Shown: piece after piece, positions 20,641 through 63,989 of the stretch | Numbering within the stretch: the first letter of the stretch is position 1 | Layout of the letters: each line of letters begins with the position of its first letter | Source: an uncultured Oscillospiraceae bacterium | Lineage (GTDB): Bacteria; Bacillota; Clostridia; Oscillospirales; Oscillospiraceae | Assembly: GCA_944385095.1 (NCBI GenBank) | Contig: CALWVS010000002.1 | Span: forward strand, 111,681 to 175,680 | Direction: 5' to 3' | Length of the DNA: 64,000 nucleotides | Notes under the pieces: model-generated | Told to the model about the DNA's origin: nothing | Databases searched by the model: none | What the model saw: only the letters and a program-made list of their open reading frames with translations | Position numbers and translations under genes: made by a program

Positions 20641-21045
20641 TTATCTCTTGGAGAACTGAGGTGCACGACGGGCTGCCTTCAGACCGTACTTCTTGCGCTC
20701 CTTCATACGAGGGTCACGGGTCAGGAAGCCGGCAGCCTTCAGGGCAGGACGGTATTCCTCGTTGACCAGCAGCAGGGCACGGGCAATACCATGACGGATG
20801 GCACCAGCCTGTCCAGTCACACCGCCGCCAGTGACAGTTGCCACAATGTCAACCTTGCCAGTCAGACCGGTAGTCTCCAGAGGCTGACGTACAATCAGCT
20901 TCAGAGTGTCCAGTCCAAAGTAGTCATCAATATCACGACCGTTGATGGTAATGGCACCTGTGCCATTCTCAAATACGTGTACACGAGCCACGGAGGACTT
21001 CCGACGGCCAGTTCCATAGAAATAAGGCTTCTTGCTCTTATACAT
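20641..21045 (-). CDS. rpsI: Ribosomal protein S9 (copy 1)
   Basis: The 134-residue protein has the S9 motif [13 protein letters not shown] at the N-terminus, a central [19 protein letters not shown], and the C-terminal [11 protein letters not shown]...SKR tail that reaches the P-site tRNA. It is a structural part of the 30S subunit. It follows rplM by 18 bases with AGGAGG, as in most bacteria. The protein is identical to that encoded at 63585-63989. The nucleotide sequences match over the first half and diverge by silent changes in the last third. Confidence 0.97.
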
Positions 21046-21063
21046 TCTCGTCTACCTCCTCAA

Positions 21064-21492
21064 TTACTTTTCCCACAGCTCGGGCTTCTGGGCTGCATGC
21101 TCATGCTCACCGCCACGGTAAATTCTCAGACGGCTCAGGGAGTCCTTGGTGATGATGTTCTTGGGCATCATTCCCTTTACTGCAAGCTGCATTGCCAGCT
21201 CTGGACGCTCATTCATCAGGGTGCGGTACTGAATCTCCTTCAGACCACCAACCCAGCCGGAATGACGGCGATAATACTTCTGGTCCAGCTTCTTTCCGGT
21301 GAGAATTGCCTTATCTGCATTAATGATAATGACAAAATCACCACAATCTGCATGGGGAGTGTAGTCGGGCTTATGTTTGCCGCGCAGCAGAGTTGCTGCG
21401 GTTGCTGCGGTCTTTCCGAGGGGCTTATTGGCTGCGTCAAGTACGTACCACTTGCGCTCAATGGTCCCCTTGTTTGCCATAAATGTGGACAT
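21064..21492 (-). CDS. rplM: Ribosomal protein L13 (copy 1)
   Basis: The 142-residue protein carries the L13 landmarks [16 protein letters not shown] near residue 15, GDFVIIINA near 50, [10 protein letters not shown] near 77 and MMPKN near 108. It is an early-assembling 50S protein. ATG at 21492 has GGAGG eight bases upstream; the ATG five codons earlier lies on that site. It is cotranscribed with rpsI from a consensus promoter, behind a leader with a hairpin. The protein is identical to the second copy at 63138-63566. Confidence 0.97.
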
Positions 21493-21553
21493 AGGGCTAA
21501 CCTCCATTTTTTATTTGGTATCAAAAATAAACGGAATTGAAATAAAATCATGT

Positions 21554-21574
21554 GCTCCACTGTACAAGCGGAGC
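21554..21574 (-). promoter_or_regulatory. Leader hairpin of rplM copy 1
   Basis: GCTCCGCT-TGTAC-AGTGGAGC, an 8-bp stem with one G-T pair, lies at the start of the transcript. The same 8-5-8 hairpin with a swapped base pair lies in copy 2. By position it could be an autoregulatory L13 leader, as described for Firmicutes. Confidence 0.65.
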
Positions 21575-21581
21575 ATTTTGT

Positions 21582-21610
21582 ATTATAGTAGTTGCACTGA
21601 AAACTGTCAA
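21582..21610 (-). promoter_or_regulatory. Consensus promoter of rplM-rpsI copy 1
   Basis: TTGACA, 17 bases, TATAAT: perfect boxes on the minus strand, 90 bases before the rplM start, with AT-rich sequence upstream. Confidence 0.9.
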
Positions 21611-21725
21611 CCGCATTTTTCTATGATTTTCATTTACATAACACTATCTTTTATTTTTGAAGATATACTCTTATTTTCTCTTGTATTCTCTTTTTCTATT
21701 TTACTTTTACTTCAAGGAGGAAGTT

Positions 21726-22490
21726 ATGAATCGCATCCTATCCCGTGTCCGCCGCTGTGTAGAGGACTATGAGATGATTCAGGAAAATGACCGCATAGCG
21801 GTTGGTGTTTCTGGTGGTAAGGATTCTCTCTTGCTGCTTACTGCACTTGCAAAACTGCGTGATTTTTATCCCATTCCCTTTCAATTAGAGGCTATTACCT
21901 TAGATATGGGACATGCTGATGGGATGTCTGGTATGGATTTTTCTCAGGTTTCTGCCTACTGTCAGGAATTGAATGTGCCATACACTATTTTACCCAGCGA
22001 AATTCACCACATTATCTTTGATATACGCAAAGAAACAAATCCATGCTCCATGTGTGCAAAAATGCGTCGTGGGGCATTGCACAACGCCATGCAGGAGCGT
22101 GGAATCCACAAAATTGCATTGGGTCATCACTATGATGATGCCATAGAAACCTTCTTTATGTCGCTGATTTTTGAGGGACGGCTTTCCTGTTTCCAGCCGG
22201 TCACATGGTTGGACCGCACAGAAATTACTCAAATTCGTCCTCTGCTCTACTGTGGGGAGACATTGGTGCAACATACAGTACAAAAATTAAATCTTCCAGT
22301 GGTACACAACCCTTGCCCAGCTAACGGGAATACCAAACGGCAGGAAATCAAAGAACTGATTTATGAGTTGAATGGTCGTTACCCTCATCTGAAGGAACGG
22401 GCTTTTGGTGCCATGCAGCGGCTCCCTCTCCCTGCATGGGGTCCTATGGAACATCGTCGCCGTCCACTGCCTGAAGAACTTGAGGATTGA
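21726..22490 (+). CDS. TtcA-like PP-loop ATPase (probable tRNA 2-thiolation enzyme)
   Basis: The 254-residue protein has the ATP pyrophosphatase loop SGGKDSLLLL near residue 30 and CSMC near residue 118, plus a later Cys in HNPCPANG. This matches the TtcA family, which uses a 4Fe-4S cluster to put sulfur on C32 of tRNA. ATG at 21726 follows AAGGAGG by five bases; the open frame upstream is AT-rich leader. It diverges from rplM copy 1. Clostridia hold several TtcA-like paralogues, so the exact tRNA target is uncertain. Confidence 0.85.
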   Translation: MNRILSRVRRCVEDYEMIQENDRIAVGVSGGKDSLLLLTALAKLRDFYPIPFQLEAITLDMGHADGMSGMDFSQVSAYCQELNVPYTILPSEIHHIIFDIRKETNPCSMCAKMRRGALHNAMQERGIHKIALGHHYDDAIETFFMSLIFEGRLSCFQPVTWLDRTEITQIRPLLYCGETLVQHTVQKLNLPVVHNPCPANGNTKRQEIKELIYELNGRYPHLKERAFGAMQRLPLPAWGPMEHRRRPLPEELED

Positions 22491-22557
22491 GCATTTCCAT
22501 TATAAACTTGTATATTTTGGATATAACATAAACAAACAAGTGAGGAGTAGACCTGTT

Positions 22558-23271
22558 ATGAGTGAAGAAACCAAATTCAGTGCAAATCCCGGTAAACAGC
22601 TGATTCGTGAGGTAAATGGAGTTTCATATCAAAGAATCCCTATTAAAACACATCTGATTACCAATCAAGACAAGATGGAAGATGTGATTTCTACCTATGC
22701 CAAAGAACAGATGCAGCCGGGTGATATTCTTTTTATCTCTGAAAAAGCTGTGGCATGTACCCAAAACCGTGCCATTCCAATGGAGGATATTAGACCCCGT
22801 CCACTGGCAGTGAAATTGAGTAAGTATGTGACCAAAACCCCCGCTGGCATTGGGCTTGGTATTCCTGAAACCATGGAAATGGCACTTCAGGAGTGTGGCA
22901 CCCTGCGTATTTTGTTTGCTGCTTTTTGCAGTGTCATTGGAAAACTGTTGGGAAAACGGGGTTGGTTTTATATTGTGGCAGGTCCCAAAGCCAGAGGCAT
23001 TGACGGTCCCACAGAAGGTACCATTCCCCCCTATGACCACTATGTTGTACTGACACCAGCCCAGCCAATGGAAACCTCTAAAAAACTTGCCCGCTCCCTT
23101 GGGCATCCAGTTGCCATTGTGGATATCAACGACTTGGGAGCAAACATTTTAGGTTTCTCTGAGCCATCCCCATCTATGGACTTGATTGCACAAATTCTGG
23201 GGGACAATCCCCTTGGGCAGTCTGACGAGTGTACCCCTATGGGCATCATCCGCAAAGTTTCATCCACATAA
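22558..23271 (+). CDS. F420-0:gamma-glutamyl ligase-like protein (CofE-related)
   Basis: The 237-residue protein has an N-terminal ISEKAV motif near residue 60 with the AGPKARGIDGPTEG segment near 140 and AIVDINDLGANILG near 185. These match the CofE-related family seen in many Firmicutes. CofE adds glutamate to coenzyme F420, but no other F420 gene is visible here, and most clostridia do not make F420. The true substrate is therefore probably different. It follows the TtcA-like gene by 67 bases with a GAGGAG site and ends at a shared terminator. Confidence 0.75.
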   Translation: MSEETKFSANPGKQLIREVNGVSYQRIPIKTHLITNQDKMEDVISTYAKEQMQPGDILFISEKAVACTQNRAIPMEDIRPRPLAVKLSKYVTKTPAGIGLGIPETMEMALQECGTLRILFAAFCSVIGKLLGKRGWFYIVAGPKARGIDGPTEGTIPPYDHYVVLTPAQPMETSKKLARSLGHPVAIVDINDLGANILGFSEPSPSMDLIAQILGDNPLGQSDECTPMGIIRKVSST

Positions 23272-23288
23272 TACCGCAATTATGTGGA

Positions 23289-23327
23289 AAAATGCCTCAG
23301 ATACCAACTAGGTATCTGAGGCATTTT
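23289..23327. terminator. Bidirectional terminator between F420-ligase-like gene and EF-G-like gene
   Basis: A perfect 17-bp stem (AAAATGCCTCAGATACC and complement), loop AACTA. T-rich bases follow on both strands. Confidence 0.88.
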
Positions 23328-23330
23328 GTA

Positions 23331-25403
23331 TTATTCCTCTGCCATTGCCTTCGCAGCTTCGATTGCCTTTGCCTGTGCAGCAGGAGGACAATCTTCATAG
23401 CGGACAAAGTGGAAGGTAAAGGAACCACGGCTTTGGGTCATAGCACGCAGGTCGATGGCATAGGAAGTCATTTCTGCCATAGGAACTTCTGCCTCAATGA
23501 CCTGCTCCCCTGTTGGAGTTGGATTCATGCCCATGACACGACCACGGCGTTTATTCAAGTCTCCAATGACATCGCCCATATAGCTGTCAGGTACAGTTAC
23601 TTTCAGTTCACCCACAGGCTCCAACAGTACAGGGTTGCCCTCAGGCATGGCTGCCTTGTAAGCTAGTTGTGCTGCTGTCTTAAATGCAATTTCAGAGGAG
23701 TCAACAGGGTGATAGCTTCCATCATAGAGAACAGCCTTCAGGTTGACCACAGGATAGCCAGCCAATGGACCATGGACACATGCTTCACGCAGTCCCTTCT
23801 CCACAGCTGGGAAGTAGTTCTTGGGCACAGAACCACCGAACACTTCCTCTGCAAATACCATTTCTTCTTCGTCAAAGTTTGGCTCAAAGCGAATCCACAC
23901 ATCACCAAATTGACCAGAACCGCCCGTCTGCTTCTTGTGACGACCCTGCTTAGAAACGGTCTTACGGATTTTCTCACGATAGGGAACACGGGGAGTTTTT
24001 AGCTCTACATCCACATTGAAACGGTTTTTGAGCTTGGAAACCAGAACATCAACCTGAATATCACCAGCGGCATACAGCACCATCTGATGTGTCTCTGCAT
24101 TGTTGACCACTGTGAAGCTGGGGTCCTCCTCGTTCAAACGGTGCAGACCCTGAGCTACCTTGTCCTCCTGTCCTCTTGTCTTAGGTGCAATGGCTACGGA
24201 ATAGTTTGGCTCTGCAAATGGAATGGGTGCTAATGTAATGACCTTACGGGCATCACACAGAGTATCCCCTGTCTTTACCTTTTCCATCTTGCCGATAGCA
24301 CCAATGTCACCACAAGACAACTCTTTGACTTCCTCTGCCTTCTTGCCACGCATAATGTACAAACGACCCAGCTTTTCACTGCTGCCAGTGCGTGCGTCCA
24401 CCAATGTCATATCAGAAGTCACATTACCAGAGAGAACCTTGATGTAAGAATATTTTCCATACTGGTCAGAAACAGTTTTAAACACAAAGGCACAGGGTAC
24501 ACCACCGGGAGCCACAGCAAATTCCTCTTTGGTGCCATCGGGTGCAGTACCTTTCCGCATATTTCCTTCCGCAGGATTGGGCAGCAGCTCTGCAATGGAG
24601 TCCATCAGCATCAGAGAACCCATGGTACTCAGAGCAGAACCACACAACACTGGGAACAGGGACAGCTCACGGACACCCTGACGCAGTCCCTGAATCATCT
24701 CCACATAGGAGAAATCTTCACCGGCAAAGAATTTGTCCATAAACTCTTCACTGGTCTCTGCCACAGACTCCTTCAAAGCATCATTAAACTCTGTGACAAC
24801 CTCATTTTTCCCCTCTGGAATCTCAATTTCTACACGCTTGCCATCACGCATTTCATAGGCACGTTTATTCAAAACGTCAATGATGCCAATGACTTTTTTA
24901 TTGTCATCCCAAATGGGCACTACCAGAGGGGCAATCTTGTTGCCGAACCGCTCACGCAGTGCCTCAAAAGTGGCGTTATAGTCGGAGTGGTCCTCGTCAG
25001 TCTTAGAGATATAGACAAAACGGGGCATGTCACGCTCCTCACAATATTTCCATGCCTTCTCCAAACCAACACTGATGCCATCTTTGGCAGAACAGACAAT
25101 GATGGCTGCATCCGCAACAGTCAGGGCTTCCATGACTTCACCAGAAAAATCGAAGCCACCCGGAGTATCCAAAATGTTGATTTTACAACCCTTATATTCC
25201 ACTGGAGCCACAGAGGTGGAGATGGAAATTTGACGCTTAATCTCCTCTGGGTCATAGTCACAGACAGTATTTCCGTCCGCAGACTTTCCCATACGGTCGA
25301 TTGCACCAGTCATATAGAGCAAACTCTCTGCCAGTGCGGTCTTACCGCTACCACCGTGTCCCAACAGACAGACATTACGGATGTTTTGTACAGAATAGCT
25401 CAT
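23331..25403 (-). CDS. Elongation factor G-like translational GTPase (EF-G paralogue)
   Basis: The 690-residue protein has the five-domain layout of EF-G. The P-loop is GHGGSGKTA rather than the AHIDAGKTT of true EF-G, G3 is DTPGGFDF rather than DTPGHVDF, and G4 is SKTD rather than NKMD. It is therefore a divergent paralogue of the kind annotated EF-G-like in Firmicutes and not the main translocase. It lies alone rather than in the rpsL-rpsG-fusA operon. ATG at 25403 was chosen because AAGGAG sits 11 bases upstream; the GTG at 25415 overlaps that site. Its function is not established; roles in ribosome recycling or stress are guesses. Confidence 0.85.
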   Translation of the reverse strand: MSYSVQNIRNVCLLGHGGSGKTALAESLLYMTGAIDRMGKSADGNTVCDYDPEEIKRQISISTSVAPVEYKGCKINILDTPGGFDFSGEVMEALTVADAAIIVCSAKDGISVGLEKAWKYCEERDMPRFVYISKTDEDHSDYNATFEALRERFGNKIAPLVVPIWDDNKKVIGIIDVLNKRAYEMRDGKRVEIEIPEGKNEVVTEFNDALKESVAETSEEFMDKFFAGEDFSYVEMIQGLRQGVRELSLFPVLCGSALSTMGSLMLMDSIAELLPNPAEGNMRKGTAPDGTKEEFAVAPGGVPCAFVFKTVSDQYGKYSYIKVLSGNVTSDMTLVDARTGSSEKLGRLYIMRGKKAEEVKELSCGDIGAIGKMEKVKTGDTLCDARKVITLAPIPFAEPNYSVAIAPKTRGQEDKVAQGLHRLNEEDPSFTVVNNAETHQMVLYAAGDIQVDVLVSKLKNRFNVDVELKTPRVPYREKIRKTVSKQGRHKKQTGGSGQFGDVWIRFEPNFDEEEMVFAEEVFGGSVPKNYFPAVEKGLREACVHGPLAGYPVVNLKAVLYDGSYHPVDSSEIAFKTAAQLAYKAAMPEGNPVLLEPVGELKVTVPDSYMGDVIGDLNKRRGRVMGMNPTPTGEQVIEAEVPMAEMTSYAIDLRAMTQSRGSFTFHFVRYEDCPPAAQAKAIEAAKAMAEE

Positions 25404-25487
25404 TGTTGATTCCACTCCTTATATTTTGACATCTGTGACACATATGCACAGGTGAAGAAACTTGGCATACGGTTCAATCTATTGTTT

Positions 25488-25516
25488 ATTATAACGTATA
25501 ATATTCATTCTGGCAA
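25488..25516 (-). promoter_or_regulatory. Promoter of the EF-G-like gene
   Basis: TTGCCA, 17 bases, TATAAT on the minus strand. A transcript leader of about 80 bases follows. Confidence 0.65.
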
Positions 25517-25638
25517 CTGTTTTTTTGGTCGTATCTCCGTGTCCCCATCGGTATTTCACAGATTTTATCACATTTTTTTGTGTAAAGTGACCATTTTATA
25601 GATTCGTTTTGCTTTTAACAAACTTTACAAAAAAATTA

Positions 25639-25664
25639 GGATTCCAGAAAATTCTCTGGAATCC
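25639..25664 (-). terminator. Terminator of the ECF sigma/anti-sigma operon
   Basis: GGATTCCAGA pairs with TCTGGAATCC; on the minus strand TAATTTTTTT follows. Confidence 0.85.
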
Positions 25665-25675
25665 AACCAAACTGC

Positions 25676-26344
25676 TTATGTCGTTTGCCACATGACCATA
25701 CAAGATTCAGAATAGGGTGGCGTGGGGAGGTCTGCATCCGTCCCTTCACACTCCAAAATTTCACACAGCTGCGTCATCTGTTCTGATGTAATGGTGCATA
25801 TTGTCCATCCCTCAGCATCCTGTTCCCATTCTAACCCAGAAAGCATCTCCATACCAGCCTCTGGCATATGTGCAATGCGCAACACAGTCTGCTGTTCTGG
25901 GACAGCAAATGTGGCTACCCCTGCTCCAGATACATCGTCTGGTATTGCCTTTCTCTCCATACCAGATGCAACAGAATTTGTGACTGTGGTGCTGTCTCCC
26001 TCTGTTGTCTGCTCCATCTGTTGATACAATCCAAAACACAAAATCATACAAGCAGCAAGCCCTGCTCCAATATTTCGAATTTGGTGGTATGTCAGGGAGA
26101 TTTTTTTCTTTTTTTCCTGTCTAATCTGTGTCATAACAGACGTCTTTAGTTGTTCTGGGGCAGATATTTCTCCCAGTTCACGCAATTCTTTCTGTGTGTC
26201 CATCAATGCCTCATAAAGTACTCGACATTCATGGCAGTGGTTCAGGTGCTCCATCAATTCTTTCTCATCGTTTTCCGACAATGCACCATCTATCGCCAGA
26301 CAAATCTGTTCCTCCCTCTCTTGACAAGGTCTCATCCCAGTCAC
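25676..26344 (-). CDS. Zinc-finger anti-sigma factor, membrane-anchored
   Basis: The 222-residue protein has a cytoplasmic N-terminal zf-HC2 motif, HLNHCHECR near residue 33, typical of ZAS-type anti-sigma factors. A single membrane helix lies at about 90-108 (IGAGLAACMILCFGLY), and an outside domain of about 110 residues follows. Its ATGA start overlaps the sigma gene stop by four bases, so the two are made in step. It should hold the ECF sigma factor inactive until an envelope signal. The sensed signal is unknown. Confidence 0.88.
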   Translation of the reverse strand: MTGMRPCQEREEQICLAIDGALSENDEKELMEHLNHCHECRVLYEALMDTQKELRELGEISAPEQLKTSVMTQIRQEKKKKISLTYHQIRNIGAGLAACMILCFGLYQQMEQTTEGDSTTVTNSVASGMERKAIPDDVSGAGVATFAVPEQQTVLRIAHMPEAGMEMLSGLEWEQDAEGWTICTITSEQMTQLCEILECEGTDADLPTPPYSESCMVMWQTT

Positions 26345-26943
26345 CTCCCCTTGGAGTTCTTCTTCTTAGACGAAAATCCTTCAAAAAGGTTCCCTGTCAA
26401 ATTCTTTTGCATGGTCAGTCTGGCTCTTGCAATTCTTGATTTCACAGTCCCCAAATCAATTCCCAAAATATCACTAATTTCCTGGTAGGAAAACCCAGAC
26501 AATTCCCGCATCACCAACACCTGTCTATAATGTTCAGGCAGTGACTGTAATTCCTGTTCTACCGCTTTGCGCACCTCTTTTTGTTCTATCTGGTGATGTG
26601 GGTCAGCATCTGGAGCAACTGGTTCCTGTATAAACGTCTGGTCGTCATCGAAAGAAACGGAGGCTCCATGTTCCCTTTGTCTTTTTTGCTTGCGTAAAAA
26701 ATCAATACATATATTGTTTGCAAGGCGGTACATCCATGTAGAAAAACTGCTGTTTCCCTGAAATTGCTGCAAGGACCGCCACGCCTTTATGAACGCTTCC
26801 TGACTTAAATCCAAAGCGTCCTCTGGATTTCTTGTCATACGGAGCATCAAAGTATAAACTCGATTTTGCTGGCTCTCAAGCAACTGGGCAAATGCTTCCT
26901 CATCTCCTGCCTTTGCCCGCTCCACCAGCTCCTGTTCTGTCAT
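26341..26943 (-). CDS. ECF-type RNA polymerase sigma factor
   Basis: The 200-residue protein has region 2 with DALDLSQEAFIKAWRSL and FSTWMYRLANNICIDFLR at residues 42-85. A linker of about 40 residues follows, then region 4 with LPEHYRQVLVMRELSGFSYQEISDILGIDLGTVKSRIARAR, which binds the -35 element. It is the first gene of a two-gene operon with its anti-sigma factor. The target genes are not visible here. Confidence 0.93.
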   Translation of the reverse strand: MTEQELVERAKAGDEEAFAQLLESQQNRVYTLMLRMTRNPEDALDLSQEAFIKAWRSLQQFQGNSSFSTWMYRLANNICIDFLRKQKRQREHGASVSFDDDQTFIQEPVAPDADPHHQIEQKEVRKAVEQELQSLPEHYRQVLVMRELSGFSYQEISDILGIDLGTVKSRIARARLTMQKNLTGNLFEGFSSKKKNSKGR

Positions 26944-26966
26944 CTACATTCTCCCCCCTGTTTCTG

Positions 26967-27944
26967 TCACTGGTCACACAAATCCCGTTTAATTCCCTTC
27001 GTGACCTGATATACATCTTCTAAGGTGGTAATTTTGACAATTTGTTCTTTGTAGTATCCCGCATGAGGCACACCCTTCAAATACCATGCGTAGTGTCTGC
27101 GTGCCTCCAGACAGGCGATTTTTTCTCCCTTATTGGCAGCCGCCAGTTCAAACTGCCGTACTGCTGTATCACATCGCTGGGCAAGGGATGGCAGAGGTGG
27201 AATCTCCCTTCCCTCCAGCACCGCTTTACACTGGGCAAACAGCCATGGATTTCCAAAAATACCTCTACCAATCATAGCAATATCTGCACCAGTATAGTTT
27301 AAAATGCGCTGTGCATCGGTAGGTTTAAAAATATCTCCATTGGCAATAACCGGAATATGAACCGCCTTTTTCACTTCACGAATCCAATCCCAGTTGGCTG
27401 TTCCAGCATACATCTGTTTTCTGGTTCTTCCATGGACTGCCACTGCTGCCACTCCTGCTGCTTCCATTGCCTTTGCAAACTCTACACAGTTGATAGAGCC
27501 TTTATCCCATCCCAGACGAAATTTCACAGTAACTGGGCAGCCTGCACCACGGATGACCGCCTCTGCCACTTTTACCGCCTTCTCAGGGTCTCTCATCAAA
27601 CCGGAACCATCTCCCGAATTTGCTACCTTTGGCACCGGGCACCCCATATTGATGTCAATGAAATCAGCACCAGATATTTCATGGGCAATCGCAGCCGCCT
27701 CCTGCATACACACTGGGTCACTGCCAAAAATCTGTGCCGCTGCTGGGTGCTCTCCTTCTCCCAGTTGTAGAAGCGGTATGGATTTTTTATCTTGATAACA
27801 CAGTGCTTTTGCACTGACCATTTCTGTACAGGTCAATCCTGCCCCCTGTTCTCTGCAAATGGTGCGAAACGCTACATCTGTTACACCTGCCATTGGTCCC
27901 AATGCCAGTGGGTTTTTAATCTCAATTCCTCCAATGGATACCAT
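26967..27944 (-). CDS. dus: tRNA-dihydrouridine synthase (DusB family)
   Basis: The 325-residue FMN TIM-barrel protein has LGPMAGVTDVAFR near residue 15, the MGCPVPKV segment with the catalytic Cys near 100, VKFRLGWD near 140 and GRTRKQMYAG near 170. It reduces uridine to dihydrouridine in tRNA D-loops. I chose ATG at 27944, six bases after GGAGG; the open frame extends 19 codons further upstream without a ribosome site. It lies 23 bases upstream of the sigma gene and may share a transcript with it. Confidence 0.92.
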   Translation of the reverse strand: MVSIGGIEIKNPLALGPMAGVTDVAFRTICREQGAGLTCTEMVSAKALCYQDKKSIPLLQLGEGEHPAAAQIFGSDPVCMQEAAAIAHEISGADFIDINMGCPVPKVANSGDGSGLMRDPEKAVKVAEAVIRGAGCPVTVKFRLGWDKGSINCVEFAKAMEAAGVAAVAVHGRTRKQMYAGTANWDWIREVKKAVHIPVIANGDIFKPTDAQRILNYTGADIAMIGRGIFGNPWLFAQCKAVLEGREIPPLPSLAQRCDTAVRQFELAAANKGEKIACLEARRHYAWYLKGVPHAGYYKEQIVKITTLEDVYQVTKGIKRDLCDQ

Positions 27945-28075
27945 TGATGTCCTCCATAATTTGAAAATAGTCTCTTGATTTAGGTCACGACATTTTATCA
28001 TAGACCCAATCAGTTGACAAGGCGATAAGAAGTGATTACAATGACAAAAAACAGTTTTTGCGAGGGTATCAAACT

Positions 28076-29287: not shown

Positions 29288-29302
29288 ACTAACACAAAAG
29301 AA

Positions 29303-29338
29303 GGGGGAGAGTTCCAATTTTGGAACTCTCCCCTTTTT
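29303..29338 (+). terminator. Terminator after DUF815 ATPase gene
   Basis: GGGGAGAGTTCCA pairs with TGGAACTCTCCCC, followed by TTTTTG. Confidence 0.88.
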
Positions 29339-29363
29339 GTTAGAGTAGCTTACTGTTCCTTAA

Positions 29364-31465: not shown

Positions 31466-31489
31466 CATTGTTTGACATAGCAAGAACGA

Positions 31490-46072: not shown

Positions 46073-47206
46073 TCAGTCTGCTAAGAGATTTTTCTCAGTA
46101 GATGGATCAAAGAGGTGTATCAACTGACTGGGGAATGTGAAGTCCATCTTTGTACCATATGGCACACCAGAGCGGTACTGTGCAGGCAGGTCTGTGGTCT
46201 GGATACGCATGACAACTTCCTGTGCATCGGCACCCTCTCCCACTGTAGCATGGAGGTAGAACTCACTGCCCATCAGCTCGGAAACTTCCACTGTGGAGCG
46301 AATGGCATTGCTCTGCTCGGTATGAATGCTGATATGCTCAGGACGCACACCCAAAATAATCTCCATGCTGCCCTGATTTTTGGCTGCCAGCTTGCTTGCC
46401 ATTTCACTTGTAACTGGAATCACAGCACCCATACAATGAATCTCATAAGTATTGTCCTTCTTCTCCAGGCGTGCCTTAAAGAAGTTCATCTGAGGTGTGC
46501 CAATGAATCCTGCCACAAACAGGTTGCATGGCATATCAAACACCTGCTGAGGAGTGCCAATCTGCTGCACAAAGCCATCCTTCATAATGACAATGCGGTC
46601 GCCCAATGTCATGGCCTCAGTCTGGTCATGGGTCACGTAGATAAAGGTAGTCTGGATTCTCTGACGCAGTTTGATAATCTCTGCACGCATCTGGTTACGC
46701 AGCTTTGCATCCAAGTTGGAAAGAGGCTCGTCCATCAACAGCACTTTAGGCTCACGCACAATGGCTCGACCAATGGCAACACGCTGACGCTGACCACCAG
46801 ACAGTGCCTTTGGCTTACGGTCAAGATATTGGGTAATGCCCAGAATCTCTGCTGCCTGATTGACACGGCGGTCAATCTCTGCCTTGTCCACTTTTCTCAG
46901 CTTCAGGGGGAACTCCATATTCTCCCGCACTGTCATATGGGGATAAAGGGCATAGCTCTGGAACACCATAGCAATATCACGGTCTTTTGGCTCCACATCA
47001 TTGACCAGACGATTGTCAATATGCAGTTCACCTTTAGAAATTTCCTCCAGACCTGCTACCATGCGCAGGGTTGTGGACTTACCACAGCCAGAGGGACCAA
47101 CCAGCACGATGAACTCTTGATCTCCAATTTCCAGATTGAAATCGCTGACCGCTGTCACATTGCCATCATAGATCTTGTAGATGTGCTTTAAACTAACTGT
47201 TGACAT
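46073..47206 (-). CDS. Sugar ABC transporter ATP-binding protein (MsmK/UgpC type)
   Basis: The 377-residue protein has Walker A GPSGCGKST near residue 37, a Q-loop, LSGGQRQR signature near 135, Walker B VLLMDEPLSNLDAKLR near 153 and H-loop VTHDQTEAM. A C-terminal OB-fold regulatory domain follows (about 240-370), with VRPEHI. MsmK/UgpC-type ATPases power class I carbohydrate importers and may serve several of them. It is the last gene of the sialic-acid-type cluster but is set off by a 183-base gap with a hairpin. Confidence 0.93.
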   Translation of the reverse strand: MSTVSLKHIYKIYDGNVTAVSDFNLEIGDQEFIVLVGPSGCGKSTTLRMVAGLEEISKGELHIDNRLVNDVEPKDRDIAMVFQSYALYPHMTVRENMEFPLKLRKVDKAEIDRRVNQAAEILGITQYLDRKPKALSGGQRQRVAIGRAIVREPKVLLMDEPLSNLDAKLRNQMRAEIIKLRQRIQTTFIYVTHDQTEAMTLGDRIVIMKDGFVQQIGTPQQVFDMPCNLFVAGFIGTPQMNFFKARLEKKDNTYEIHCMGAVIPVTSEMASKLAAKNQGSMEIILGVRPEHISIHTEQSNAIRSTVEVSELMGSEFYLHATVGEGADAQEVVMRIQTTDLPAQYRSGVPYGTKMDFTFPSQLIHLFDPSTEKNLLAD

Positions 47207-47246
47207 AGTCTCGGTCGTGGCATACTTGCCTCCGCAGATATACCTT

Positions 47247-47268
47247 ACAAAAAGAGTCTTCTTTTTGT
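47247..47268 (-). promoter_or_regulatory. Hairpin in the leader of the ATP-binding protein gene
   Basis: ACAAAAAGA-AGAC-TCTTTTTGT on the minus strand, a perfect 9-bp stem between nanA and the ATPase gene. It may be a weak attenuator or processing site that sets a separate level for the ATPase. Confidence 0.45.
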
Positions 47269-47389
47269 GTTACAACAGGTCTCCACACTGCTGCACCGCC
47301 GACCAGCGGATTTTTTCCTCCTTTTTTCAGTAGAGAGAACTATAGAAATGGAGTAGCCCTCTCCCCGTCAATTTTATTCACACTAAAGG

Positions 47390-52507: not shown

Positions 52508-52525
52508 ATAAGGCTGCCTCTCTTT

Positions 52526-55884: not shown

Positions 55885-55911
55885 AACAGAATTCCTCTCT
55901 GTACTTTTTTC

Positions 55912-56700: not shown

Positions 56701-56859
56701 AGCATCGTTCCTCCTTTGGGTTTTCATTTTCTTCATTATAGAGGATTTTCCAGAAAATCGCAAAGACTTTTTCTATCAAATGTTCTTGTTTCTCCGTGGA
56801 GTTCGTGTTACAATCGTAAAAATTCGAGAAATCAACTAAAAAAAGAGGAATATATTGTC

Positions 56860-57375
56860 ATGAATCTAATTTTAAGCGACAAGCCACTCCACTTTCTCAC
56901 ATCTCTGCCATCCGACACGGTTGTCTATGATTTATCCCAGCAGACCATCCGTCCCTGTGTTGGCTGTTTTGGCTGCTGGACAAAAACCCCTGGCAAATGT
57001 GTGATTCGAGATGATGCCCCCAGTATCTATCCAAAAATTGCAGCATCAGAGCGCATTCTGTATATCAGCCATATCTGGTGTGGGGGTTTTGATACCCCTA
57101 TGAAAACACTGATGGAGCGTTCGATTCCAGTCCAGCAGGCTTTTATTCGTATTTATCAGGGGGAAACCCACCATGTACAGCGTGCAGTGGTTCCCAAAGA
57201 AGCTGTTATCTTGGCATATGGTGCAGAGACACAGGAAGAACAAACTCTTTTTAAACGTCTTGTGGAGAGAAATGCCAAAAATATGTCCTTCTTCTCCTGG
57301 AAGATTCGTTTTCTCTCCCCAGAAACATTACAGGAAGCCATTCTTGAGGAGGTTGCTCAATGGAATCACTCTTAA
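56860..57375 (+). CDS. Flavodoxin-like NAD(P)H-dependent oxidoreductase with Cys motif
   Basis: The 171-residue protein has the segment CVGCFGCWTKTPGKCVIRDD near residue 35. This Cys-rich loop is typical of the flavodoxin-like reductases that bind FMN and, in some relatives, iron-sulfur clusters. The usual N-terminal phosphate loop (GS.R..S) is not seen here; the next gene has one. It overlaps that gene by 16 bases, so both may form one complex. Substrate unknown. Confidence 0.75.
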   Translation: MNLILSDKPLHFLTSLPSDTVVYDLSQQTIRPCVGCFGCWTKTPGKCVIRDDAPSIYPKIAASERILYISHIWCGGFDTPMKTLMERSIPVQQAFIRIYQGETHHVQRAVVPKEAVILAYGAETQEEQTLFKRLVERNAKNMSFFSWKIRFLSPETLQEAILEEVAQWNHS

Positions 57376-57962
57376 TCATCAATGGAAGCCCCCGCGCTCC
57401 ACGTTCCAACTCTAAACGATATATTGAATTGTTTACTCAATCTTTTACTGGCTCTTATGACCAATTACAGGCATTAAACTATTCTGAATCTACTGTGAAT
57501 GTGGATGGTTATTCTGATATTCTATTGGTTTTTCCACTCTATGCAGATAGTATTCCCACTCCATTGATGACATTTTTAAAAATCATGTCTCAATCCCCTA
57601 AAACACATCGCCCCACCATTCATATCCTGATTAACTGTGGTTTTTTAGAGCCAGAACAAAATATCATTGCGGTAGAAATGCTCCGGTTTTATGCCAAACA
57701 GTTCGGTTTTTCCTTTGGTTCTGTGTTGATGATTGGCAGTGGAGAAGCGATTTTGAATACTCCATTTTCCTTTTTGGTCAAAAGACGTATCCATAAACTG
57801 GCTGCCTCGATTCAAACACACAATCCCCTGTGTCAATCTGTCACCATGCCCCTGCTAAAGTCTATTTTCTTATCCGCATCCACAAAATACTGGCTTACCA
57901 TGGGTGCAAAACATGGGCAAACCAAAGAAACCATGTCTACTATGTCCATTGAAAAGGAATAA
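57360..57962 (+). CDS. Flavodoxin-like NAD(P)H-dependent oxidoreductase
   Basis: The 200-residue protein opens with LLIINGSPRAPRSNSKRYIE, the FMN phosphate loop of the NADPH-dependent FMN reductase fold. LLVFPLYADSIPTPLMTFLK near residue 55 is the second flavin loop. The C-terminal 60 residues lack known motifs. Translation is coupled to the preceding Cys-motif reductase by a 16-base overlap. The pair resembles a flavodoxin protein broken into complementary parts, but no frameshift is needed to explain it. Confidence 0.75.
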   Translation: MESLLIINGSPRAPRSNSKRYIELFTQSFTGSYDQLQALNYSESTVNVDGYSDILLVFPLYADSIPTPLMTFLKIMSQSPKTHRPTIHILINCGFLEPEQNIIAVEMLRFYAKQFGFSFGSVLMIGSGEAILNTPFSFLVKRRIHKLAASIQTHNPLCQSVTMPLLKSIFLSASTKYWLTMGAKHGQTKETMSTMSIEKE

Positions 57963-58016
57963 CTCATGTCCGTATTGCATACAATACTCCATCCAAAACA
58001 GGAAGGAGTCTCTCCC

Positions 58017-59051
58017 ATGCCAAGACAAACAAAGCCGTCCTCTTACTCCCTTAGACATCTACTTGGTGTCAGTCTTGCACTTTCTTTATTTGTCTTTTTG
58101 CTCCCTGTTTTGACTGTCAGGGGAGAGGCGGTTTTAACACCAAAGTGGGACACAACACCCCCCACTTCCCCCAATGAGTCCTCAGCCATTCCCACCTCTG
58201 CCAGAGATAGAGGACGTGTGGTAAAACTTCTCCTCCCAGATGGCACTATTTCTGAACTCTCCATGGAGGAGTATCTGTTGGGGGTGGTATCAGCTGAAAT
58301 GCCAGCTTCTTTTGAATTGGAAGCACTTAAGGCACAGGCATGTGCTGCCCGTACATACACAGTAAGAAAACAGACCTATGAAACTGCAAAGCATCCTGAT
58401 GCTGATGTATGTACTGATATCAGTTGTTGTCAGGCATATCTGTCCCCTTCCGATGCTGCCCAACGCTGGGGAAGTTCTGCCGAAAGTTACACCCAAAAGA
58501 TACAACAGGCAGTTGCTGAAACCGATGGTTTGGGTGTCCTCTACAATGGTTCCCCCATTCAGGCTGTTTTCTTTTCCTCCGCTCCCGGTTATACTGTGGA
58601 TGCTGTGGAGGTATGGGGCAATCAGGTGGACTATCTGCAAAGTGTGGAGAGCCCAGAAGGAGATGAAGTCCCCAATTTTCGCAGTACTGTCACATTGTCT
58701 GCTGATGAGGTAAAAAGTCTCATTCTCAACACCTATGCCAATGCAAATCTCACAGGGGACCCTTCCACCTGGTTTGGTTCTCCTGTCACCAATCAAGGTG
58801 GCACTGTCTCCAGCATTTTGGTGGGTGGGGTTACATTGACAGGAAACCAAATCCGTTCTCTGTTTCAGCTTCGTTCCGCCTGTTTTCTTGTTTCATGGGA
58901 TGGCACTTCTTTCACATTTTCCGTCACCGGCTATGGGCACGGGGTGGGGATGAGCCAATATGGAGCCAATACCATGGCACAGTCTGGCAGTACCTATGAT
59001 GAAATTCTTACATGGTACTATACCAATACACAGGTTGACTTTTTGTGGTAA
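58017..59051 (+). CDS. spoIID: Stage II sporulation protein D (SpoIID/LytB lytic transglycosylase)
   Basis: The 344-residue protein has a membrane anchor at about 18-36 and then a SpoIID domain: SMEEYLLGVVSAEMPASFELEALKAQACAARTY near residue 85 includes the catalytic Glu, HPDADVCTDISCCQAY has His and Cys residues in the positions that bind zinc in clostridial SpoIID, and GYGHGVGMSQYGA closes the domain. It cuts glycan strands during forespore engulfment. ATG at 58017 follows GGAAGGAG by eight bases; an ATG at 57966 with AAAGGA is a second possibility. Confidence 0.9.
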   Translation: MPRQTKPSSYSLRHLLGVSLALSLFVFLLPVLTVRGEAVLTPKWDTTPPTSPNESSAIPTSARDRGRVVKLLLPDGTISELSMEEYLLGVVSAEMPASFELEALKAQACAARTYTVRKQTYETAKHPDADVCTDISCCQAYLSPSDAAQRWGSSAESYTQKIQQAVAETDGLGVLYNGSPIQAVFFSSAPGYTVDAVEVWGNQVDYLQSVESPEGDEVPNFRSTVTLSADEVKSLILNTYANANLTGDPSTWFGSPVTNQGGTVSSILVGGVTLTGNQIRSLFQLRSACFLVSWDGTSFTFSVTGYGHGVGMSQYGANTMAQSGSTYDEILTWYYTNTQVDFLW

Positions 59052-59062
59052 AATAAACTGGA

Positions 59063-59102
59063 AAACCCCAGAAGAATGTGTTTCCACCTTCTTCTGGGGT
59101 TT
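59063..59102. terminator. Bidirectional terminator between spoIID and mnmE
   Basis: AAACCCCAGAAGAA pairs with TTCTTCTGGGGTTT around a 12-base loop. Confidence 0.8.
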
Positions 59103-59116
59103 CTTATTGCTTTTCC

Positions 59117-60496
59117 CTATTTTCCTACACAAAAGCGTGCAAAAATACGGGCTGTTACATCTTCCCGGACTGACTGCCCTGTCAGCTCTCCCAATGCCTC
59201 CAACGCCTGTTCCACATCGGTCAGGAGGGCATCTGGTGTCATACCTGCCAACAGGGCTTCTCGGCTGCGTTTCACACCTTCCAACGCCTGTTGTGCTGCC
59301 TGTGCCTGTCTAACATTGGTCAAAACTGCTCCATAGCTGGCTCCCGTCTGTTTGGGGAATTGAGCAGCCACTGCCTTTCCAAGCTGTTCCATCCCATCCC
59401 CGGTTTTGGAGCTTAACTCCACAACAGAAACAGATGCCCCATCTGGCAAAGCAGGCGGAGACACATGTGATAAATCTTTTTTTGTCCACACCAAAATGGT
59501 GGGGGCACGCTGCACTGCCTCGTTCAGCAGTGCTTTGTCCTCCTCTTGCACCTGTGTCGTAGAGTCCCACAGCACCAGAATCAGCTCTGCCCGCTCCATA
59601 GCTTCACGGCTGCGCTCCACCCCCATCTGCTCAATGGGGTCATGACTGTCACGCAGACCGGCTGTATCAATGATTCGCAGTGGAATGCCACCCAGTTCAA
59701 TCTGTTCCTCAATGGTGTCTCTGGTGGTACCGGGAATATCTGTGACAATAGCACGCTCATACCCTACCAGCGCATTCAAAAGAGAAGATTTTCCTGCATT
59801 GGGTCGACCTACCAGAACGCACTGTATTCCCTGATTCATCTGTCTGCCCCTCTGATAGGTTGCCAGTAACTTTGTCAACTCCAACTCCTGATGAGAAAGC
59901 TGCTGTTCCAATTCTGTCATGGTGAATGGGGCAATATCCTCCTCTGGGTAATCCAGCACTGCATGGAAATGTGCCATAATATCCACCAATCCGCTGTAAA
60001 TCTGCTCAATTCTGCGGCTCAATGCACCACATAGCTGCCCTGCTGCCTGTCTGGCTCCCTCACGGCTTCTGGCTTCCAGCAAGTCTGCCACCGCTTCTGC
60101 CTGCGCCAAATCCAGTCGACCGTTTAAAAATGCCCTCTGGGTAAATTCCCCTGCTTTAGCCGGTCTTGCCCCCTGTGCATACAGTGCTTCCAGACCCAGT
60201 GTCAACACCGCAGGGGAACCATGACAGTGAATTTCGGCAGTATCTTCCCCTGTATAGGTTGAGGGAGCTCTGGTGTAGGTACACAGAACCCGGTCAATCA
60301 CCTCTCCCTCCTGGTCTAACAGGTCTCCATAGACAAGGGTGCGCTCCTGTCGCTCCAAAAGAGGTACACGCCCCAGTGGTCGGAAACAGGCAGATGCAAT
60401 TTCAACTGCGCTCTCTCCTGACAAACGTAATATACCTATCGCACCCGCTCCAACTGGTGTGGCGATTGCTGCAATGGTATCGGCTTTATGGCTCAC
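59117..60496 (-). CDS. mnmE: tRNA modification GTPase MnmE
   Basis: The 459-residue protein has an N-terminal formyl-THF-binding domain, a helical domain, an inserted G domain with GRPNAGKSSLLNAL near residue 225, DIPGTTRDT, DTAGLRDS and WTKKDL, and the C-terminal FCVGK with the catalytic Cys. With MnmG it makes the wobble U34 modification (carboxymethylaminomethyl) in tRNA. GTG at 60496 follows AAGGGA by nine bases. mnmG, normally next to it, is not in the window. The upstream gap holds DnaA boxes. Confidence 0.96.
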   Translation of the reverse strand: MSHKADTIAAIATPVGAGAIGILRLSGESAVEIASACFRPLGRVPLLERQERTLVYGDLLDQEGEVIDRVLCTYTRAPSTYTGEDTAEIHCHGSPAVLTLGLEALYAQGARPAKAGEFTQRAFLNGRLDLAQAEAVADLLEARSREGARQAAGQLCGALSRRIEQIYSGLVDIMAHFHAVLDYPEEDIAPFTMTELEQQLSHQELELTKLLATYQRGRQMNQGIQCVLVGRPNAGKSSLLNALVGYERAIVTDIPGTTRDTIEEQIELGGIPLRIIDTAGLRDSHDPIEQMGVERSREAMERAELILVLWDSTTQVQEEDKALLNEAVQRAPTILVWTKKDLSHVSPPALPDGASVSVVELSSKTGDGMEQLGKAVAAQFPKQTGASYGAVLTNVRQAQAAQQALEGVKRSREALLAGMTPDALLTDVEQALEALGELTGQSVREDVTARIFARFCVGK

Positions 60497-60826
60497 AATT
60501 CTCTATCCCTTCTGTGGCTGTGGAAAACTCAAAAATCCGACGGATGACACGCTTCCACTTGCAAAATTATTTTTGTGCAATTTGTCTCTTTTTTGGTGAG
60601 ATATACCCTGTTCTATCCTCCATTTCTTTCCCCATACTTTCCTTTAGAACTTGTGGAAAACTATGTGGAGAATGTGGATAAGCTTACTGAACTCTCTCAA
60701 ACTTCATCTTCCGTGTTTTATCATATCTGACAAAAATCGACGCCATTTTACACCATTCGACAAAGTTCGTCAACGACAGCCCCTGAAAATTTGCAGGAAT
60801 TCCACCACTTTTATCTGGGGTTATCC
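60497..60826. other. Non-coding gap with a cluster of DnaA boxes (origin-like)
   Basis: No gene is seen here. One perfect DnaA 9-mer, TGTGGATAA, lies at 60673-60681. One-mismatch boxes TGTGGAGAA (60664-60672) and TGTGGAAAA (60652-60660 and 60519-60527) share its direction, and TTATCCTCA lies at 60821-60829 in the other direction. Three boxes lie within 30 bases. AT-rich sequence lies between. mnmE is often close to the replication origin in Firmicutes, but no dnaA, dnaN or rpmH is in the window. Confidence 0.6.
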
Positions 60827-62224
60827 TCAGGCACTTTCCACACGCTTTAACACTGCTCTTGCAGCCTGCACACCAGCCGCCCCAGCCTGTGCCAGTCCTC
60901 TGGTGACGCCTGCTCCATCTCCTGCTGCAAACAGACCGGGAATGGCAGTCTCCATATCCTGTGAGAGCTGAAGGCGTGCAGAATAAAATTTCACTTCTGC
61001 ACCATATAGCAGTGTATCATGGTTGGCTGTACCTGGGGCAATTTTATCTAACACATAAATCATTTCAATGATATCATCCAGTTGACGTTTCGGCAGAGCC
61101 AGGGACAAATCACCGGGCACAGCCGCTGTCAAAGTCGGTCTTGTAAACGACTTATTCATCCGATGTTCATTGGAACGTGTCCCTCTAACTAAATCTCCAA
61201 AACGCTGCACCAGAACACCACCTGCTAACATATTGCTCAGAGATGCGATGTGCTTTCCATATCGATATGGCTCATTAAATGGCTGTGTAAACCGATTGGA
61301 AACCAGTAGGGCAAAGTTGGTATTTTCACTGCGCAGAGCTGGGTCGGCGTAGGAGTGCCCATTGACTGTATTGATTCCCTCCACATTTTCTGCCACCACA
61401 TGCCCATATGGGTTCATACAGAAGGTACGCACCTGGTCGCCATACTGTTTGGTGCGATACACCAGTTTTGACTCATACACCACATCTGTAATATGTTCAA
61501 ATACAGCTGCTGGCAGTTCCACACGGACACCTATATCCACCTGATTGTTGAGCAGTTCCAGCCCCAGTTCCTTACATTGGTTGGAAAACCACTCTGCACC
61601 AGACCGTCCAGGGGCTGCAATCAGCCGTTTACAGCAAATATCTTCTCCTTTTGCCAATGCAAGGCGGAATCCTTCTTCCTCATGTATGATCTGCTTTACC
61701 TCTGTCTGGAAGCAAAATTCCACTTTATCTTTCAAGCCTTCATAGATATTTTGCAGAATCCGCAGGTTATTTTCTGTGCCCAAATGCTTACATCTGGCCT
61801 GCAACAGGTGTAAATCATAACCCAAAGCCTTTTTTGCCAGTTGCTTTGCCTCTGGTGTCTCAGTAGAAAAGACATGTTCTGTGGCTCCATGTGCAACATT
61901 GATACTGTCCACATAGTCAATTAGCTCCATCACATGCCCAGCATCCATAAAATCAGTCAGCCATCCACCAAACTGAGTGGTAAAATTGAACTTTCCATCC
62001 GAAAATGCACCTGCTCCACCAAATCCACACATGGTATCACATACAGAACAGTGGATGCACTCCCGTACCTTCCCTGCTACAATAGGACAGCTACGGTGAT
62101 AAATATCCCGTCCCTGGTCTAACGCCAACACCTTCAAATCAGGGCGGTGTTTGGCTAATTCATAGGCTGCAAAAATACCAGCTTCGCCACAGCCCAAAAT
62201 GACTACATCATAAGTTTTACTCAT
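60827..62224 (-). CDS. FAD-dependent oxidoreductase, COG2509-type
   Basis: The 465-residue protein has an N-terminal FAD-binding fingerprint, VVILGCGEAGIFAAYELAK, at 7-25. A Cys-rich segment CIHCSVCDTMCGFGGAGAFSDGK follows near residue 57, and a C-terminal FAD motif GLFAAGDGAGVTRGLAQAGAAGVQAA near 430. It belongs to the large group annotated as NAD(FAD)-utilising dehydrogenases; the Cys cluster may hold iron-sulfur or a redox disulfide. The substrate is unknown. ATG follows GGAGG by nine bases. It lies 138 bases downstream of the rpiB stop, behind the rpiB terminator. Confidence 0.85.
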   Translation of the reverse strand: MSKTYDVVILGCGEAGIFAAYELAKHRPDLKVLALDQGRDIYHRSCPIVAGKVRECIHCSVCDTMCGFGGAGAFSDGKFNFTTQFGGWLTDFMDAGHVMELIDYVDSINVAHGATEHVFSTETPEAKQLAKKALGYDLHLLQARCKHLGTENNLRILQNIYEGLKDKVEFCFQTEVKQIIHEEEGFRLALAKGEDICCKRLIAAPGRSGAEWFSNQCKELGLELLNNQVDIGVRVELPAAVFEHITDVVYESKLVYRTKQYGDQVRTFCMNPYGHVVAENVEGINTVNGHSYADPALRSENTNFALLVSNRFTQPFNEPYRYGKHIASLSNMLAGGVLVQRFGDLVRGTRSNEHRMNKSFTRPTLTAAVPGDLSLALPKRQLDDIIEMIYVLDKIAPGTANHDTLLYGAEVKFYSARLQLSQDMETAIPGLFAAGDGAGVTRGLAQAGAAGVQAARAVLKRVESA

Positions 62225-62334
62225 AAAACAATTCCTCCATGAGTTGTGTCAAAAGTATGGTTCACACATAGTTACAGCATACCACAGAATCAAAAGAAAA
62301 GGAATGGGAGTTGCTGGTTTTTTGTGTAAAAAAG

Positions 62335-62363
62335 AACCTGTGCTGTTGTGTTCAGCACAGGTT
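62335..62363 (-). terminator. Terminator of rpiB
   Basis: AACCTGTGCTG pairs with CAGCACAGGTT; on the minus strand TTCTTTTTT follows. Confidence 0.85.
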
Positions 62364-62367
62364 TCCC

Positions 62368-62802
62368 TTATTTTTCAATCTCCATCATCAAATTAACTCG
62401 ACGTTCATGGCGACCGCCTTCAAACTCAGTGGATAAGAACACATCCACCATACGTTCTGCCAAATTGGTTCCCACAATGCCCGCTCCCATTGCCAACATA
62501 TTGGCGTCATTGTGGCGGCGTGTCATTTCAGCAGAAAAGGAATCTGCACACAGGGCACAGCGAATGCCCTTTACTTTATTAGCAGAAATGGAAATACCAA
62601 TTCCTGTGGTGCAAATGACAATTCCCTTTTCACAGGTGCCATTTGCAACTGCCTCTGCTGCTGCCTTGCCATATACAGGATAGTCGCAGCTATCCAAACT
62701 GTCACAGCCGCAGTCCAGCACCTCTATGCCCTTGGCAGTCAAATAGGCTTTGATATGCTCCTTTAAGCGGTATCCACCATGATCAGATCCAATTGAGATC
62801 AT
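62368..62802 (-). CDS. rpiB: Ribose-5-phosphate isomerase B
   Basis: The 144-residue protein has the RpiB active-site parts GSDHGGYRLKE at 5-15, the catalytic Cys in CTTGIGISISANK near 65, and RRHNDANMLAMG near 98. It interconverts ribose-5-phosphate and ribulose-5-phosphate. With the split transketolase at 8-10 kb it supports a non-oxidative pentose phosphate pathway. ATG at 62802 follows AAGGAGG by nine bases; a GTG directly before it has six-base spacing and is equally possible. The gene diverges from rplM copy 2. Confidence 0.93.
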   Translation of the reverse strand: MISIGSDHGGYRLKEHIKAYLTAKGIEVLDCGCDSLDSCDYPVYGKAAAEAVANGTCEKGIVICTTGIGISISANKVKGIRCALCADSFSAEMTRRHNDANMLAMGAGIVGTNLAERMVDVFLSTEFEGGRHERRVNLMMEIEK

Positions 62803-62805
62803 CAC

Positions 62806-63021
62806 AAACTTCCTCCTTCAAAAGAAACCTCGTCTTTACTTCTCGTTTTCCATAGACGGTTCTTATCATTCTATTTCAAATATCGCTGTTTTTCAAGGGT
62901 TTCTTTTCTATTTTCTCTTTTTTAATTTTAAAATTAAAATTTAGATTTTGAAAGAAAATAAGAGAATACATGAGAATACAATAGTTTTCTAATTTTAATG
63001 AAAAAAATATAGAAAATACCG
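62806..63021. other. AT-rich gap between rpiB and rplM copy 2
   Basis: No gene is seen. The stretch 62880-63020 is very AT-rich, with repeats of the type AAAATAAGAGAATACA. Similar A-rich words occur upstream of rplM copy 1 (on its own strand, about 21650-21710), so the duplication may extend into this upstream region, where such tracts could serve as UP elements. Confidence 0.5.
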
Positions 63022-63050
63022 TTGACTTTCTGCCATTTCGCTTCTATAAT
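63022..63050 (+). promoter_or_regulatory. Promoter of rplM-rpsI copy 2
   Basis: TTGACT, 17 bases, TATAAT, 88 bases before the start codon; same geometry as copy 1. Confidence 0.88.
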
Positions 63051-63057
63051 ACAAAAC

Positions 63058-63078
63058 GCTCCACAGGTGTTGTGGAGC
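63058..63078 (+). promoter_or_regulatory. Leader hairpin of rplM copy 2
   Basis: GCTCCACA-GGTGT-TGTGGAGC, an 8-bp perfect stem in the same place as in copy 1. Against copy 1 one pair is swapped (T-A to A-T) and one changed from G-T to A-T, so pairing is kept. Confidence 0.68.
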
Positions 63079-63137
63079 TGCTATTTTGAGCTATAACAAT
63101 CATGTTTTGATACCAAATAAAAATGGAGGTTAGCCCT

Positions 63138-63566
63138 ATGTCCACATTTATGGCAAACAAGGGGACCATTGAGCGCAAGTGGTATGTACTTGACGCAGCC
63201 AACAAGCCCCTCGGAAAGACCGCAGCAACCGCAGCAACCCTGCTGCGTGGCAAGCATAAGCCCGACTACACTCCCCATGCAGACTGTGGAGATTTTGTCA
63301 TTATCATCAATGCAGATAAGGCAATTCTCACCGGAAAGAAGCTGGATCAGAAGTATTATCGCCGTCACTCCGGCTGGGTAGGTGGTCTGAAGGAGATTCA
63401 GTACCGCACCCTGATGAATGAGCGTCCAGAGCTGGCAATGCAGCTTGCAGTAAAGGGAATGATGCCCAAGAACATCATCACCAAGGACTCCCTGAGCCGT
63501 CTGAGAATTTACCGTGGCGGTGAGCATGAGCATGCAGCCCAGAAGCCCGAGCTGTGGGAAAAGTAA
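63138..63566 (+). CDS. rplM: Ribosomal protein L13 (copy 2)
   Basis: The 142-residue protein is identical to that of the copy at 21064-21492. The first 240 bases differ from copy 1 at about a dozen or fewer silent positions; the rest is identical. The ribosome site GGAGG, spacing and leader end are also the same. A second intact L13 gene is unusual, since rplM is normally single-copy. Codon usage shows no sign of decay. Confidence 0.97.
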
Positions 63567-63584
63567 TTGAGGAGGTAGACGAGA

Positions 63585-63989
63585 ATGTATAAGAGCAAGA
63601 AGCCTTATTTCTATGGAACTGGCCGTCGGAAGTCCTCCGTGGCTCGTGTACACGTATTTGAGAATGGCACAGGTGCCATTACCATCAACGGTCGTGATAT
63701 TGATGACTACTTTGGACTGGACACTCTGAAGCTGATTGTACGTCAGCCTCTGGAGACTACCGGTCTGACTGGCAAGGTTGACATTGTGGCAACTGTCACT
63801 GGCGGTGGTGTGACTGGACAGGCTGGTGCCATCCGTCATGGTATTGCCCGTGCTCTGCTGCTGGTCAATGAGGAATACCGTCCTGCTCTGAAGGCAGCCG
63901 GCTTCCTGACCCGTGACCCTCGTATGAAGGAGCGCAAGAAGTACGGCCTCAAGGCTGCCCGTCGCGCTCCGCAGTTCAGCAAGCGCTAA
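63585..63989 (+). CDS. rpsI: Ribosomal protein S9 (copy 2)
   Basis: The 134-residue protein is identical to that of the copy at 20641-21045. Bases up to 63805 match copy 1 exactly. After that silent changes rise, and the last 12 codons hold most of them, including AGC for TCC (Ser) and CGC for AGA (Arg), which need several changes. Selection on the protein is therefore clear. The terminator lies beyond the window. Confidence 0.97.

Follow-up and report, generated by a model that had tools for sequence, protein, structure and literature searches.

Two copies of the rplM-rpsI operon in an uncultured Oscillospiraceae bacterium: a likely old duplication with probable gene conversion and a block shared with other genomes at one rpsI end

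We analyzed a stretch of 64,000 nucleotides (the window) from an uncultured Oscillospiraceae bacterium, corresponding to bases 111681-175680 of contig C2 (175,680 bases). It carries two copies, A and B, of the rplM-rpsI operon, which encodes ribosomal proteins L13 and S9. We observed that the differences between the copies are unevenly distributed, that copy B ends in a 63-nt block common to other genomes, and that the sequences upstream of rplM group by locus. In our opinion these observations are likely explained by an old operon duplication, in which the coding parts were homogenised by conversion and the end of rpsI B was replaced by an integrative element. The genes and the part identical between the copies are:

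21064..21507, minus strand: rplM (L13) of copy A, Pfam Ribosomal_L13
20641..21045, minus strand: rpsI (S9) of copy A, Pfam Ribosomal_S9
63123..63566, plus strand: rplM (L13) of copy B, full-length L13 match
63585..63989, plus strand: rpsI (S9) of copy B, full-length S9 match
20825..21249, minus strand: 425-nt core of copy A, identical to copy B by sequence comparison
63381..63805, plus strand: 425-nt core of copy B, identical to copy A by sequence comparison

The two operons form inverted arms (20641-21511 and 63119-63989) of 871 nt, which are 97% complementary and spaced by 41,607 nt. The genes are intact, as the initial annotation had described, and arms of this length and identity rule out chance similarity. 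Its further statements, that both copies encode the same L13 and S9 and that all coding differences are silent, were confirmed as well: the proteins are identical and each of the 26 differences (11 in rplM, 15 in rpsI) is silent. The unevenness of these differences had been missed, with none in the 425-nt core and 10 crowded into the final 52 nt of rpsI B. It had also been missed that window base 64000, 11 nt past the rpsI B stop, is the end of the contig. The assembly (2.43 Mb, 59 contigs) contains two full-length matches to L13, two to S9 and no others. A DNA search of the assembly with copy A and its flanks as the query matched only A and B and gave no third place of the operon.

We compared the window with G064, a genome of another species, which is 92.6% identical to it over 20 kb. 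Contig C9 of G064 (43,436 nt) covers what lies between the copies and ends at window positions 21513 and 63117, which are the starts of the repeat; both its ends stop at the same repeat, as expected from a collapsed two-copy repeat. Contig C99 (3,061 nt) starts with 873 nt of the repeat, beginning with rplM-rpsI, and continues past the operon into a methyltransferase gene. Its operon is 97.9% identical to copy A and 96.9% to copy B. The trkH side of copy A is on contig C1, which runs 68 nt past a second rpsI tail before it ends. Two different sequences were found downstream of rpsI in G064, and its contigs point strongly, if indirectly, to two copies in this species too.

Upstream of rplM, copies A and B were 68% identical over 176 nt, while between the species we found 95.7% identity for A and A (211 nt) and 88.5% for B and B (312 nt). 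In the tree of upstream sequences the two B regions grouped together (100/100), as did the two A regions (99/100). Since the upstream sequences group by locus across both species, the duplication appears older than the species split. Another possible source of such a pattern is that copy B is a xenologue, taken up from another species, whose coding part was later overwritten by copy A. The upstream part of B is indeed about as far from A as from other species (71-75%, over shorter stretches), and the B pair stands on a long branch of its own in the upstream tree. However, the loci compared yielded no donor whose upstream region is close, and the upstream signal is too weak for placing B. We regard a foreign origin of copy B as improbable.

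No A/B difference was detected in the 425-nt core, though 129 of the 249 variable columns lie inside it. Random draws never gave a gap of this length in 200,000 trials, and gave it in 10 of 200,000 when the 3' block was excluded. At 10 sites of the core G064 differs from both A and B, and in the coding tree A and B of this genome fall together with weak support. A core identical between the copies, with the sister differing at 10 sites, is a signature of gene conversion, and we conclude that the core was probably homogenised in this way. For the coding part as a whole, our confidence in gene conversion is moderate.

The differences at the end of copy B showed a different pattern. The feature in question is:

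63938..64000 (to the contig end), plus strand: 63-nt block, made of the last 52 nt of rpsI B and 11 nt, read as attL, identical in five genomes

Of the 26 coding differences, ten are found in these 52 nt of rpsI B. The block is identical in five other distinct genomes, namely L013 (G048, from another family), L041 (the same genome as G065), L068 (Flavonifractor sp. An82), L070 (isolate SUG933) and L231 (G080). Elsewhere in the operon these genomes are 71-78% identical to copy B, and the exact match reaches only 2 to 5 nt upstream beyond the block. In three of the five, the contig stops 8 to 12 nt after it. Behind the block in L068 come genes for ParA, ParB and a DUF6017 protein; a similar element in L072, the tail of which is not identical, also encodes a MobC/NikA protein. 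We read the block as attL, the left end of a putative integrative element targeting rpsI, and by this comparison the ten silent differences in the rpsI B tail appear to be imported as one block. The rest of the element may lie behind copy B, in the assembly gap, as the contig ends inside the block. A near-match search among plasmids gave no match to the left end. These results change one conclusion of the initial annotation, which had taken the silent differences as a sign that both copies are under selection. As the identity of the core is probably due to homogenisation and 10 of the 26 differences belong to one imported block, silent differences are no safe sign of selection here.

Integrase genes were observed next to rpsI in relatives. 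In L083 a 9.4-kb stretch (10851-20275) lies between rpsI and a second rpsI tail, with a tyrosine integrase beside the tail, and in L216, L222 and L223 integrase genes stand just ahead of the rpsI tail, two in a row. These four loci point to the rpsI 3' end as an integration hotspot in the family. We counted contig ends at 80 loci, 79 of them with rpsI: contigs ended at -116 to +200 nt of the rpsI stop in 15 of 79 and within 200 nt of the rplM start in 1 of 80. The 68 nt before the tail on contig C1 of G064 resemble, by eye, the right ends of L216 and L222, and for this reason an element seems to lie on the copy A side in G064. In L030, L038, L049 and L058 there is a second short rpsI tail approximately 200-480 nt behind rpsI, probably the scar of a deleted element. 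Extra rpsI-tail matches in relatives were also considered as relics of copy B and rejected, as they are mostly right ends of elements or short tandem tails.

We then identified the genes next to each copy:

21657..22490, plus strand: PP-loop ATPase gene, divergent from rplM A, Pfam ATP_bind_3
19067..20434, minus strand: TrkH-type transporter gene, downstream of copy A and also on contig C1 of G064, Pfam TrkH
62368..62796, minus strand: rpiB, neighbour of copy B, Pfam LacAB_rpiB

The survey of neighbours involved 119 loci with rplM (some genomes are represented twice), of which 109 had at least 1.2 kb upstream of rplM. The PP-loop ATPase gene was found ahead of rplM in 94 of these 109 loci, and a match to rpiB was absent from all 119. 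Copy A is at the usual location, and the PP-loop ATPase gene is its usual neighbour. When 20 rpiB loci were compared, the neighbours of rpiB in the window adjoined rpiB in G064 only. In G027, counterparts of window genes 10379-15030 are found near rpiB. A carbohydrate phosphorylase gene stands ahead of rpiB in L202 (CCNA10), and sequence similar to that ahead of rpiB in L202, as judged by eye, is present in some other relatives. The counterpart of the C99 methyltransferase gene is located in this genome on contig C25, behind different genes; no join is shown by it, and we rejected C99 and C25 as a guide to the right-hand neighbour of copy B. The sugar-modification genes behind rpsI in G064 (L225, G064:C99) have their counterpart in L243 (G000:C25), 1-12098, a rearranged locus.

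According to the explanation we favour, rplM-rpsI would have been duplicated on the chromosome together with its promoter and leader before the split from the sister species G064, and the duplication would have put copy B beside rpiB. Gene conversion between the copies would keep the coding parts alike, and upstream each locus would diverge on its own. In rpsI B the final codons would have been overwritten by one end of a tyrosine-integrase element, either an integrative and conjugative element (ICE) or an integrative and mobilizable element (IME), landing at the rpsI 3' end.

Several observations weigh against this explanation. Copy B stands at the contig end and is known from assembled contigs alone, and the second copy of G064 is indicated indirectly, by a collapsed contig, rather than seen directly in the sequence. 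In the upstream tree 12 of 17 inner branches are open and the bootstrap is unsettled, and the grouping of A with B in the coding tree is weak (81/53). Beyond the core and the block, G064 shares the base of A at 9 sites and that of B at 7, which is no clear locus signal. In this assembly we found no related integrase (only distant ones, best 27% identity), no third rpsI tail that could be the second attachment site, and no match to the left end of the element.

An artefact of assembly or binning, in which the contig end would be a strain variant of a single operon misjoined to rpiB, would account for the position of copy B at the very end of the contig and for its tail, a block common to unrelated genomes and often a place of contig breaks. 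However, the stretch from rpiB to promoter B is present in G064 with 88.5% identity, on a contig that stops at the same repeat start and whose other end stops at repeat A. Together with the two different rpsI downstream sequences in G064 and the promoter and hairpin of copy B itself, this makes an artefact unlikely. The initial annotation had presented the two copies as real and named an artefact among the outcomes that would refute this; the second species, known from assembled contigs, supports two real copies. A single operon beside a flipping 42-kb segment was rejected, as copy B differs from copy A and G064 has the two downstream sequences. The 41.6-kb segment (window 21512-63118) between the near-identical inverted arms could itself flip by homologous recombination.

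Further, we counted L13 matches among relatives. In a set of 60 genomes, this one included, L13 was matched in 51, with two matches in this genome and in G023, where both are partial pieces. In 400 genomes of the family (this one included) 330 were matched, and by reading of the table two matches were present in four: this genome, G172, G243 and G396. The second match of G396 is a 29-residue piece. Full-length L13 pairs, each on separate contigs, were found in G172 (L246, L250) and G243 (L247, L251). Unlike the pair described here, they are only approximately 75% and 73% identical, respectively, and they were rejected as further duplications of this kind; they may be either divergent second copies (paralogues) or contamination. 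One copy is the norm in both sets, in agreement with the earlier remark that rplM-rpsI is normally single-copy. G064 scores one L13 match in the family count despite its two probable copies, therefore collapsed pairs are missed by such counts.

We also inspected the sequences ahead of both operons:

21582..21610, minus strand: promoter-like site of copy A, TTGACA-17-TATAAT (12/12), consensus match only
63022..63050, plus strand: promoter-like site of copy B, TTGACT-17-TATAAT (11/12), consensus match only
21553..21575, minus strand: leader hairpin of copy A, loop with GTACAG, predicted fold
63058..63078, plus strand: leader hairpin of copy B, two stem pairs with both bases different in G064, predicted fold

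The promoter and leader hairpin noted earlier at both copies were found again, as the sites are of consensus type and both leaders fold; in both copies the predicted hairpin opens the leader, immediately behind the -10. In the copy B stem the two species differ at two base pairs, with both partners of each pair altered, and such paired changes suggest a maintained structure. The fold of G064 B was the weakest of the four folds and was matched by 7 of 200 shuffles. Open frames, a promoter and a hairpin with two paired changes are better signs than silent differences, and they suggest that copy B is maintained. We infer that both operons are expressed, and a dosage or condition-dependent role of the second copy is possible.

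In distinct leaders of other genomes the motif GTNNAG was present in 59 of 103 and GTACAG in 25 of 103. The GTNNAG strings of copy B are in the stem, not in the loop, and copy B has no GTNNAG-type loop in either species. No Rfam leader family scored above the gathering score for the operon leaders, and relaxing the threshold to an E of 5 brought up only unrelated matches of far lower score. In E. coli L13 represses rplM-rpsI through the leader, as stated in part of PMC10931766. The two systems are alike in having a structured leader ahead of rplM-rpsI, to go by the same part of that source; here, unlike in E. coli, the leader is a short hairpin unmatched by known leader families, and the control is putative. 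It is tentatively conceivable that copy B was retained because the L13 feedback acting on A does not reach its altered leader, and it offers a second source of L13 and S9 in other conditions. The GTACAG loop kept by A, the lack of such a loop in B of both species, the paired changes in the B stem and the E. coli example would all agree with it. However, the motif is also absent from 44 of 103 other leaders, no Rfam leader family was matched, the G064 B fold is within reach of shuffled sequences, and L13 feedback in Oscillospiraceae is assumed by analogy, so we consider this escape doubtful. Elsewhere in the window, a malK-I RNA (Rfam RF03069) was detected at 47201-47371 on the minus strand (123 bits, cut-off 60.3).

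Copy A and G064 C99 cease to be alike at the rpsI stop codon. If this point is read as an attachment site, the operon might have been doubled by mobile elements landing at its 3' end, and the second copy would be a spare landing site and a feedback-free source of L13 and S9. Conversion would then repair the coding changes left by each landing, and leader B, lacking the loop motif of copy A, would put L13 and S9 outside the feedback. The element end at the A side in G064 and at B here would be what use of two sites predicts. We give this possibility little credence.

The old duplication with conversion and a replaced rpsI end, which we prefer, has parallels in known systems. Passages of PMC4701971 and PMC5357655 name the rpsI 3' end as a known target of streptococcal ICEs and IMEs. 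These elements, as described in those passages, share with the present case tyrosine integrases, the rpsI 3' target, direct repeats made of the rpsI tail and tandem elements; IMESag-rpsI (PMC5090054) is a further example. Unlike them, the case described here concerns gut bacteria of the Oscillospiraceae type and one of two operon copies, and only the left block is seen in this genome. Concerted evolution by gene conversion, in the part of PMC10503786 available, similarly gives an identical core with divergent flanks, and a core common within a genome and not between species; unlike the usual cases, the object here is a ribosomal protein operon and two species only are involved. Paralogues of ribosomal proteins, such as the forms of L31 or S4 that have or lack zinc sites (PMC7363858 and PMC3087516, in excerpt), also provide a second gene, but here the proteins of both copies are identical and there is no alternative form. 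A doubled rplM-rpsI operon was not met in the titles and abstract openings returned by a thin literature search, and we do not claim that it is absent from print.

In summary, these results suggest that a normally single-copy ribosomal protein operon is held twice in two species, which would make them a natural test of the tolerance of ribosomal protein gene dosage. If conversion acts between the copies and an element rewrites the last codons, silent differences in ribosomal protein marker genes can be imported. Since genomes assembled from short reads collapse such pairs, they may be under-counted.

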